The translations under genes and the position numbers were made by a program. This document shows positions 962-3,467 of a stretch of DNA of 7,420 nucleotides, piece by piece. The first letter of the stretch is position 1, and each line of letters opens with the position of its first letter. Under the pieces are notes generated by a model. The model saw only the letters and a list, made by a program, of their open reading frames with translations, was not told the origin of the DNA and searched no databases. This stretch comes from a bacterium (GTDB lineage: Bacteria > T1Sed10-126). The stretch is from positions 1-7,420 of the forward strand of contig PWHN01000031.1 of assembly GCA_003554945.1 (NCBI GenBank), in the 5' to 3' direction.

Positions 962-2281
962 CTATCCATCTCCTACCTTTTCAATCACAGATTTAAACTC
1001 TTCTATCAAATCAACCAACTGCTCTTCTTCGATAACCAGCGGTGGCATCAGATAAACAACCGGTCCCAGGGGTCGGACAAGCACACCGCGGCGCAGAAGC
1101 TCATGTTTGACACGCTTCGCTCGGTGTACAGCCTCATCGCGGTCAGCCCCATCAAGCTGAACCGTCCCCAGCAGACCGAGACTACGGGCTGTTTTAACAC
1201 TGGAAACGTCTTCCATCTGCTCAAATTGCTCGGCAACCAATTCCGCCAGAGATTGGACGTGAACAAGTAAATCATTTTCATCATAATAATCCAACGTGGC
1301 CAGTGCTGCCGCGGAAGCCAGGGGGTTCCCGGCAAAAGTGTGACCGTGAAAGAATGTTCGCTCCGGCGGTGGACTTTTGAACGAATCATAAATATTTTCG
1401 TCAACCAGGGTAGTGCTCAAAGGTAGATAACCGGCCGTAAGCCCCTTGCCCAGACAGATTATGTCCGGCCGAATGTCTGCCTGCTCGTAAGCCCACATTT
1501 TTCCGGTCCGACCCATCCCCATCGCAATCTCATCATCGATAAGTAAAATCCCCTTTTCCCGGCATTGCAACGCCAGGCGTCGTAAAAAACGAGCCGGATA
1601 AATATTCATCCCCATGGCTGCCTGGCAGAGTGGTTCAATTACAACGGCCGCCAATTCCTCCCCCTCCTGGGACAGCAGTGCAGATACGTCATCGTAACAT
1701 TTCAACGAACAGCTCACTTCAGCTTCCTCACAAGACAGACAGTCCGGCGACGGCAGAGAGGGCTGGTCGGGCAGCACAGCTTTGAAAGGCTTATGAAATC
1801 CTTCCAGGTAACCGACCGACACCGCCCCCAGTGTATCACCGTGGTAATCCCCTTTTAGATAAGCTATCTTTCGGCGCTTGTTATCACCGCGGTTATGCCA
1901 GTGCTGAAGCGCAATTTTTAGTGCCGCTTCTACTGCGGAGGCGCCGTCAGAAGCAAAAAATGCCCGGCGGTTACCGCCGTTTTTTTCTACCAGACGCTGT
2001 GCCAACTCAATCGCCCGCGGATTCGACTGGTTTCCTAAAATAGAGTGCTGGAGCTCGTCCGCCTGGTTTTTAATCGCCTCCACCACCTGCTTCTGTCCGT
2101 GGCCGAGGTTACAGGCCCACCAGGAGGAGATGGCGTCAACGTATTGCTTGCCCTCGACGTCGTAAAGATGAATTCCTTCGCCGGCTTCAATTACGGGAAA
2201 ATCTTCGGACATCAGCTCCCGGTAGTCGGTATAAGGATGCCAGACCGTCTCCCGATCTAGGCGACGATACTCACTCTTCAT
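962..2281 (-). CDS. bioA: Adenosylmethionine-8-amino-7-oxononanoate aminotransferase (DAPA synthase)
   Basis: This PLP-dependent class III aminotransferase converts KAPA to 7,8-diaminopelargonate, normally with S-adenosylmethionine as amino donor, in the cytoplasm. Its 439 residues are close to the usual 420-450. Visible hallmarks are: WHPYT at 14-18, carrying the substrate-site Tyr; SSWW at 52-55; GDYHGDTLGA around 144-153; the PLP-ring Asp in IDDEIAMGMGRTG at about 248-260; the Schiff-base Lys279 in LGKGLTAGYLPLS; HGHTFAGNPLA at 312-322; and VRPLGPVVYLMPP at 402-414. Residues 181-195 carry four cysteines (C181, C184, C191, C195), an insertion absent from the E. coli enzyme. The ATG at 2281 has GAGGAG at 2289-2294, 7 nt upstream. 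The gene is separated from bioD by a 424-bp structured gap, so it may have its own promoter. It is followed within 2 nt by a small ORF. Confidence 0.97.
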   Translation of the reverse strand: MKSEYRRLDRETVWHPYTDYRELMSEDFPVIEAGEGIHLYDVEGKQYVDAISSWWACNLGHGQKQVVEAIKNQADELQHSILGNQSNPRAIELAQRLVEKNGGNRRAFFASDGASAVEAALKIALQHWHNRGDNKRRKIAYLKGDYHGDTLGAVSVGYLEGFHKPFKAVLPDQPSLPSPDCLSCEEAEVSCSLKCYDDVSALLSQEGEELAAVVIEPLCQAAMGMNIYPARFLRRLALQCREKGILLIDDEIAMGMGRTGKMWAYEQADIRPDIICLGKGLTAGYLPLSTTLVDENIYDSFKSPPPERTFFHGHTFAGNPLASAAALATLDYYDENDLLVHVQSLAELVAEQFEQMEDVSSVKTARSLGLLGTVQLDGADRDEAVHRAKRVKHELLRRGVLVRPLGPVVYLMPPLVIEEEQLVDLIEEFKSVIEKVGDG

Positions 2282-2366
2282 TTTTTATCTCCTCATTTAA
2301 TAAATTACTAAAGTTTTGCGTTTTGTAAGCAAGATAGTTCATATCTTTCACCATACGTTTATTTTT

Positions 2367-2392
2367 GGTCAAGTAAGGATTGGTCCCTACTT
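2367..2392 (-). promoter_or_regulatory. Inverted repeat overlapping a TTGACC -35-like box upstream of bioA
   Basis: AAGTAAGGA (2371-2379) and TCCCTACTT (2384-2392) form a 9-bp inverted repeat around a TTGG centre, with one mismatch that becomes a G-U pair on the minus-strand transcript. Its downstream arm overlaps a minus-strand TTGACC (2372-2367), a 5/6 match to a sigma-70 -35 box, about 85 bp before the bioA ATG. The -10 region at the right spacing is poor (GAAAGA/AAAGAT). A repressor operator over a bioA promoter would fit this layout, but the promoter call is weak. The repeat does not match the BirA or BioR operators I know. Confidence 0.25.
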
Positions 2393-2409
2393 TGTAAAAA
2401 AACACGGTA

Positions 2410-2547
2410 GTTCTGAGGGCCGATGGGTTTCTGACGGATTTATAAAGACCTCAAACCCCAGGATGGGGTTGTTTTGAGGTCTTTATACCTCGGAAGTGGC
2501 CAAGAGGGCCACGAGAATGATGTCAGAAATATATCGGTCCTCAGAAC
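2410..2547. repeat. Large inverted-repeat element folding as a three-way junction; unrecognised
   Basis: Two 26-nt arms (2410-2435 and 2522-2547) pair at 22 of 26 positions as DNA, both carrying GTTCTGAGG and TTTCTGAC in inverted orientation. Inside are two hairpins. The first has a perfect 15-bp stem (2441-2455 with 2473-2487), continuing after a 4-nt bulge into CCCC/GGGG (2456-2459 with 2465-2468). The second is GTGGCC-AAGAG-GGCCAC at 2496-2512, extended by CTC/GAG across a GGAA bulge. Read as plus-strand RNA, three of the four outer-arm mismatches become G-U pairs (2419/2538, 2425/2532, 2427/2530); on the minus strand they are A-C mismatches. It holds no credible ORF. It could be a structured RNA, a non-autonomous mobile element, or a leader or attenuator for bioA. 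I do not recognise it as a known family. Confidence 0.75.
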
Positions 2548-2565
2548 GGGGAATCTGTAAAACTT

Positions 2566-2589
2566 TAATAAATTAGATACTATTTATTA
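2566..2589. repeat. AT-rich 8-bp inverted repeat (possible operator)
   Basis: TAATAAAT (2566-2573) and ATTTATTA (2582-2589) form a perfect 8-bp inverted repeat around an 8-nt centre. It lies in a very AT-rich stretch (about 2558-2612) upstream, in minus-strand terms, of the three-way-junction element. The geometry suits a dimeric regulator, but the local AT richness makes a chance match plausible. Confidence 0.35.
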
Positions 2590-2681: not shown

Positions 2682-2711
2682 ATTTAACACAATTGCGCAA
2701 GGGTGTTAAAT
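2682..2711. repeat. 30-bp near-perfect palindrome spanning the bioD stop codon
   Basis: The arms are ATTTAACAC (2682-2690) and GTGTTAAAT (2703-2711). They enclose a second perfect palindrome, TTGCGCAA (2693-2700), with only two mismatched base pairs between (AA at 2691-2692 opposite GG at 2701-2702). The bioD TAA (2708-2706) lies in the right arm. There is no T-run after it on the minus strand, so it is not a standard intrinsic terminator for bioD. On the plus strand an alternative 8-bp pairing (AACACAAT 2686-2693 with ATTGTGTT 2712-2719) runs directly into TTTTCTT, a weak terminator-like pattern facing the other way. Confidence 0.5.
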
Positions 2712-3467
2712 ATTGTGTTTTTTCTTGTCCCAAATGGGCGAAAAAACAGCCGAGAGATCTCCTATATTATACTCTTCTCGATCATGTATCTTTTGATAGA
2801 GGTTCCCCTGGCTTTTTATCAATTTATCATAGTCCGGCAGGTAGCGACAGTAACCCGCTACCGGTCGGCCGCTAAGCTCTTCAACAATTTGCAGGTTGTC
2901 CGTCTCAATTTCCGACCAGTTCACTGGCCTCGGTTCGTTGAATACAATCGCTGCCACCTCCAGGCCAGCCACCTGCAATTGACGGACCGAAAGCAGCGTC
3001 TGATTTATAGTTCCCAGGTCTACTCGAGTAACTAATACAACCGGTAAATCTAATTCCACCATCAAATCAAGCATAAGATAGTCACAAGTGATTGGAACCA
3101 TGATTCCGCCCGCTCCTTCAAATATCAGTAGCGGGTATTCTTCCCGCAATTTTTGGCAGTCATTTAGCAGCGCGTCAACCTCAATTGGGCTGCCCGCCAG
3201 TTCAGCCGCCAGATGCGGCGAACAGGCTTTCCGGTAACGACGCGGAGCAAACTTTTCATGAGTGGCTGGATCTGAAGGCAGGTCGCTGGCCTGCAGAATT
3301 TCCGTCAAATCAGGCGCCATCAGACTACCGTCTTCCTCTTTACATCCCGTTTGAACCGGCTTTACGGGCCAGGCCTCCTGACCTTTTTGACGCAGCGCAG
3401 AAACCAGAAGTGCACTGACAAACGTCTTCCCGATGCCTGTATCAGTGCCAGTTACAAAAAAACTCAT
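2706..3467 (-). CDS. bioD: Dethiobiotin synthetase
   Basis: This enzyme carboxylates 7,8-diaminopelargonate with CO2 and ATP and closes the ureido ring to give dethiobiotin, in the cytoplasm. It has 253 residues, slightly longer than the roughly 225 of E. coli, with the extra length at the C-terminus. Seen in the sequence are: an N-terminal P-loop, GTDTGIGKT, at residues 7-15; the substrate-binding KPVQTG at 36-41; SPHLAAE at about 83-89; and EGAGGIMVP at 117-125, which contacts substrate and phosphate. The ATG at 3467 overlaps the bioC stop as ATGA, so the two are translationally coupled. A 30-bp palindrome covers its stop codon, and a 424-bp non-coding interval follows before bioA. No key residue appears to be missing. 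Confidence 0.97.
   Translation of the reverse strand: MSFFVTGTDTGIGKTFVSALLVSALRQKGQEAWPVKPVQTGCKEEDGSLMAPDLTEILQASDLPSDPATHEKFAPRRYRKACSPHLAAELAGSPIEVDALLNDCQKLREEYPLLIFEGAGGIMVPITCDYLMLDLMVELDLPVVLVTRVDLGTINQTLLSVRQLQVAGLEVAAIVFNEPRPVNWSEIETDNLQIVEELSGRPVAGYCRYLPDYDKLIKSQGNLYQKIHDREEYNIGDLSAVFSPIWDKKKHNI

Follow-up and report, generated by a model that had tools for sequence, protein, structure and literature searches.

MITE-like elements with different ends share a three-way-junction module that is probably a folded RNA

Element between bioD and bioA

The window, by which we mean the whole 7,420-nucleotide stretch analysed here, carries genes that we take from their translations to be bioB, bioF, a BioG/BioC-like pair, bioD (2706–3467, minus strand), and bioA (962–2281, minus strand). 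The initial annotation had placed an unrecognised three-way-junction element at 2410–2547, between bioD and bioA. Alignment of the flanks of its copies showed that this 138-bp stretch forms the middle of a longer element; the annotated extent stands as that of the core, and the whole, repeated element is 2308–2568. It starts with CTAAAGTTTTGCG, ends with GTAAAACTTTAA, and is bordered on either side by TAAATTA, and its 261 bp contain no open reading frame of 60 or more amino acids. A repeated TGTAAAA, already called doubtful as a target-site duplication, was ruled out in that role because both words fall inside the element; the true direct repeat is TAAATTA. The features are listed below.

2301–2307, no strand: target-site duplication TAAATTA, 7 bp, left copy, identical to 2569–2575
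2308–2568, plus strand: whole MITE-like element, family TIR1, 261 bp, with ends common to other full copies
2308–2324, plus strand: left terminal inverted repeat CTAAAGTTTTGCGTTTT
2410–2435, plus strand: 5' arm of the closing stem of the three-way-junction module, from folding and class-specific complementarity
2435–2440, plus strand: junction strand J1, CGGATT; CGG and one T are invariant across five genomes
2441–2487, plus strand: hairpin B, with a 14-bp stem, a 6-bp inner stem, a GGA loop, and a 4-nt 3' bulge TGTT (2470–2473)
2488–2494, plus strand: junction strand J2, CCTCGGA
2496–2512, plus strand: hairpin A, GTGGCC-aagag-GGCCAC; in other copies, unrelated hairpins take its place
2513–2520, plus strand: junction strand J3, GAGAATGA; AGAATGA is invariant in the cross-genome alignment
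2522–2547, plus strand: 3' arm of the closing stem, from folding and class-specific complementarity
2553–2568, plus strand: right terminal inverted repeat ATCTGTAAAACTTTAA
2569–2575, no strand: target-site duplication TAAATTA, right copy

The annotated fold was borne out in its parts. In the sequence, the arms 2410–2435 and 2522–2547 form 22 of 26 pairs as DNA and 25 of 26 when G-U is counted on the plus strand, three of the four mismatches being G.T on that strand. The enclosed hairpin with its bulged extension consists of the 14-bp stem, the TGTT bulge, and a 6-bp ACCCCA/TGGGGT stem, and the GTGGCC hairpin is present as 6 bp of GTGGCC/GGCCAC. Folding well beyond chance was also confirmed: the RNA minimum free energy of 2410–2547 is -78.8 kcal/mol on the plus strand (z -10.9; 0 of 200 shuffles as stable) and -70.7 on the minus strand (z -11.1), and folding as DNA gave z -12.1 and -11.1 for the two strands. 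Fold energies cannot tell RNA from DNA.

Copies and module classes in the host genome

A search with a 148-bp query found 12 full and 2 partial copies, the window copy included, with 90–100% identity in the same 2.2-Mb genome. The copies lie at many unrelated loci, which supports the reading as a mobile repeat. Related elements are arranged in the same way with other hairpins. A search of the genome for TATACCTC-N(12-40)-GAATGA gave 37 occurrences, against none for the reversed pattern used as control, and the extracted modules gave similar folds and a nearly gap-free alignment despite unrelated helix sequences. A covariance model of 22 sequences matched the genome 61 times at E ≤ 0.1 and 58 times at E ≤ 2.5e-5, the 58 including partial copies at contig ends; these matches added the classes M8 and M9 and copies with a long unrelated hairpin in place of hairpin A. 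At least nine sequence classes were distinguished, with closing stems and hairpins that are unrelated between classes. The junction strands CGGAUU, CCUCGGA, and GAGAAUGA are the same in all copies, and one hairpin is always bulged. What they have in common is a module built from an approximately 20-bp closing stem, the bulged hairpin B, hairpin A, and junction strands, three in number, that are almost without variation.

The module classes are distributed over at least three types of terminal repeat. Nine family-1 (TIR1) elements with both ends are flanked by flush repeats of about 7 bp (shuffle p 0.015), and 13 elements with two other end types, TIR2 and TIR3 (GGCTCTGTTGAAATCC and GGCTCTGTAGAAAACC), have 8-bp flush duplications (p 0.0002). 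Several characters of MITEs are present: terminal inverted repeats (the CTAAAGTTTTGCG type and two further types here, others in the genomes G284 and G068 described below), target-site duplications of fixed length (8 bp for TIR2 and TIR3, about 7 bp for TIR1), and short, non-coding, multi-copy elements. The window element belongs to MITE-like families with different ends, all carrying one module. The non-autonomous mobile element that the initial annotation had offered as one option is thus supported by the many loci, the terminal repeats, and the target duplications. The TIR2 ends, with their 8-bp duplications, had pointed to a partner of the IS6 type, but PF13610, the only transposase family tested, had no match in the MAG (121 contigs), and this partner was rejected.

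The same annotation had also considered an attenuator before bioA, that is, a cis-regulatory RNA of the biotin operon. The position between bioD and bioA and the strong fold would suit such a role, but the genome has dozens of copies next to unrelated genes, inserted in either orientation, and at this locus the strand that folds runs antisense to both bioA and bioD. The insertion between these genes is one of many and gives no evidence of biotin control; we regard the attenuator as unsupported and most improbable. The element at this locus would most likely be a passenger and not a biotin regulator.

Several copies are themselves interrupted or reduced. In L082, L084, and L162 (contigs C24, C102, and C95), an insert of about 95 bp in hairpin A of class M3, starting with GTCCCTATCGGGACGTGTG on the opposite strand, is a nested element. 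In L151 and L152 (C102:58137-58327 and C98:3943-4133), a long CCGAGCACTCAAT...ATTGAGTGCTCGG hairpin stands in place of hairpin A of class M4, and the word GAGCACTCAAT of these two copies also flanks M3 within family-1 elements. Comparison of L079 (C7) with the window copy showed that module-less elements retain only GTTCTGAGAAC; elements such as C7 appear as they would after precise loss of the module, or before its gain.

Occurrence outside the host genome

The 148-bp query found no copy in 58 other genomes sampled, and the element was absent from one genome of the same family as the host. An exact 25-mer search gave no match in other genomes. The window copy had no match among the plasmids or phages searched and the junction pattern was absent from viral contigs, and a phage or plasmid origin was rejected on these grounds. 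Among genome contigs, the junction pattern gave three matches; two (L107 and L108) look like chance, and the third (L109) is a real copy. The latter lies on PWHR01000048.1 from the soda-lake sediment sample T1Sed10, where a family-1 element adjoins ExbD/TonB-like bacterial genes; this contig is filed under a Thermoplasmata archaeon MAG and is probably misbinned.

The covariance models reached further. The first model found two genomes, G124 and G068, among 145, and a second model, to which copies from these two had been added, found G284 and G176 among 386 genomes; a further sample of 385 genomes, largely overlapping the first, yielded no additional genome. Because its training set included some copies from G124 and G068, the second model inflates the scores of these two genomes; G284, G176, and two G124 copies were outside that set. 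None of the four genomes has a rank below domain in common with the window's genome. Their modules have the same junction strands and quite different helices, and most of them lie within MITE-like repeats that have other ends. In G284 the module lies within repeats of about 190 bp with TTAAGCAAAAGTG ends, and in G068 within repeats with ends like GGGTGCG...GTAGGTAG. The four copies in G124 each have a different closing stem, with no visible common ends beyond the closing stems.

Conservation of the fold and of one strand

The helices are supported by compensatory changes, both in RNAalifold and against shuffle controls. RNAalifold on the 22-sequence alignment showed changes on both sides in 29 of 36 pairs. 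Paired cells amounted to 93.0%, compared with 66.4% after shuffling and at most 49.9% with the partner slid by 1–3 columns, and double-changed cells to 218, compared with 75. The covariation score, which rests in part on paralogues within one genome, was 0.692 against 0.201 for shuffled alignments; 0 of 500 shuffles reached the observed values. Among 18 representatives, taken from five genomes, the closing arms share only 32% identity, yet in 17 of the 18 the 5' arm finds its best match in its own 3' arm. The junction, by contrast, is invariant at 17 positions when aligned across genomes.

Mispairs in the helices of the 18 representatives, read on the module strand, comprise 42 G.T and 6 A.C (p 1e-7), which indicates that one strand is the folding strand. 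This strand, the plus strand of the module, folds more stably in 31 of 37 distinct modules, a result that partly follows from the same G.T pairs. Oppositely oriented modules occur within the same composite elements, and each class retains its own G.T strand. Since the helices vary freely yet stay complementary and the junction letters are fixed, the folded single strand is under selection; the strand CGGAUU...CCUCGGA...GAGAAUGA is the one that folds and is selected, and freely changing helices around invariant junction letters are the pattern expected of a functional fold.

The same elements could be read as an ordinary MITE family in which template switching keeps palindromic arms complementary and the fold has no function. 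Stable hairpins are common in MITE-like repeats (PMC10969869), and copies without the module, C7 among them, resemble the products of slippage deletion in palindromes. Template switching, however, does not hold unpaired junction letters constant while all paired letters diverge, nor does it give a preference for G.T over A.C on one strand, and the junction identity extends to genomes without a common rank below domain. This explanation is already disfavoured, and we consider it unlikely.

Genomic position and the form of the folded strand

In 33 of 43 cases, transcription of the gene next to the module's 5' side leads away from the module (p 0.0006), a count that mixes insertion preference with orientation. 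Among 37 classifiable copies, 10 lie in divergent and 2 in convergent regions (p 0.04), and between neighbours of the same direction the module strand is antisense in 18 cases and sense in 7 (p 0.04); all these position statistics are modest, as they use simple heuristic ORF calls and count some composite elements twice. A sigma-70-like promoter signal was not enriched upstream of the modules (p 0.3). Independent transcription is therefore not supported, and a small RNA with its own promoter was set aside on this basis. In composite TIR1 elements, M1 is oriented opposite to M2 and M3, so that no single transcript or DNA strand can show every module in the orientation that folds.

A scan with the Rfam covariance models matched no family. 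The new structured RNA that had been suggested for the core thus gains from the covarying helices, the invariant junction, the strand-specific G-U pairs, and the absence of a known RNA family; its identity as RNA is the part that holds less firmly, as single-stranded DNA would also account for the fold. Another reading is a catalytic RNA, such as a self-cleaving ribozyme, that transposons have spread; the compactness of the three-way junction, its 17 invariant positions, and its novelty to Rfam would fit. We consider such an RNA very unlikely, since the Rfam scan covered the known small ribozymes without a match and no catalytic signature was recognised.

The module may instead act as folded single-stranded DNA, for example as a hairpin or cruciform met by a DNA-processing enzyme in replication or transposition. 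Folding as DNA is as significant as folding as RNA (z -12), G.T mispairs are tolerated in DNA too, the modules lack a promoter signal, oppositely oriented modules coexist in one element, and neighbouring genes more often run antisense to the folding strand than in its direction (18 versus 7). On the other hand, the ends and duplications resemble those of double-strand cut-and-paste elements, which need no hairpin, and a junction invariant at multiple positions is more like folded RNAs than like known DNA hairpin targets. We regard folded DNA as possible, and somewhat doubtful. RNA is the simpler reading of the folded strand and would be the more likely of the two.

Proposed role and comparison with known repeats

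We propose that these elements probably form a MITE superfamily with a common, undescribed three-way-junction module, most likely a folded RNA and possibly a folded single-stranded DNA. Each family would be moved in trans by a transposase recognising that family's ends, and the junction CGGAUU...CCUCGGA...GAGAAUGA would be read by a factor independent of any particular transposase. The module may aid persistence of the element by binding this factor or by acting itself, for example through protecting or processing transcripts or through presenting a structured DNA strand. A MITE is usually regarded as a pair of ends with no content of its own. The present elements differ in their ends and have a content in common, and what is conserved of this content, across genomes without a common rank below domain, is the fold and not the sequence. 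Such conservation points to a common cellular partner or activity exploited by small transposons. More tentatively, and with slightly less than even confidence, the junction could be a functional folded nucleic acid of a new class, as RNA or as single-stranded DNA, read by a conserved cellular factor or itself catalytic, that several unrelated transposon lineages acquired in bacteria without a common rank below domain. The junction motif is defined well enough to be searched, probed, and used as bait.

Known repeats resemble these elements in part. BOX elements of Streptococcus pneumoniae are likewise small, intergenic, modular, dispersed, and predicted to fold when transcribed, with an internal module that may be absent or repeated (PMC3049150). 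BOX modules, however, are recognised by sequence in streptococci and are over-represented between convergent genes (PMC3049150), whereas here only the junction is common, the helices have no common sequence, and 2 of 37 classifiable copies are convergent. The bcr1 and other Bacillus cereus repeats are also short (100–400 bp), dispersed, and mobile, with tens of copies per genome, but bcr1 is one sequence family with a TTTAT motif in the B. cereus group only (PMC6542083), and here one fold occurs in several families with different ends. Correia, ERIC, and QMITE2 are likewise MITEs that have terminal repeats and give transcripts with a stable fold, QMITE2 having direct repeats of 7–9 bp and TIRs of 23–29 bp, and some MITEs of these types alter or cleave mRNA; their sequences and hosts differ from those of the present element (PMC10969869, PMC3049150). 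MRSC-65-2 is likewise a covarying structured repeat with dozens of copies per genome in many phyla, its RNA or DNA form being undecided; it was rejected as the same element because it is a single long stem with repeated UYCCGG (PMC11109978), in contrast to the three-way junction CGGAUU / CCUCGGA / GAGAAUGA. The consulted portions of the literature on BOX, bcr1, Correia, ERIC, QMITE2, and MRSC-65-2 contain no such junction and no module common to MITE families with different ends, and an earlier description elsewhere is possible.

Other repeats in the window

A second MITE-like element lies at 494–658 of the window as a remnant of the TIR2 type (TTTTCTGTTGAAATCC...GGATTTGAATAGAACC) without the three-way-junction module. 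It holds a CCCTCTCCCCTGGAGGGAGAGGG palindrome (about 590–612) that is present at other loci too. At the 3' end of bioD, an inverted repeat, TTTAACAC-N12-GTGTTAAA, is found at 2683–2710 and could be an operator or a terminator remnant.
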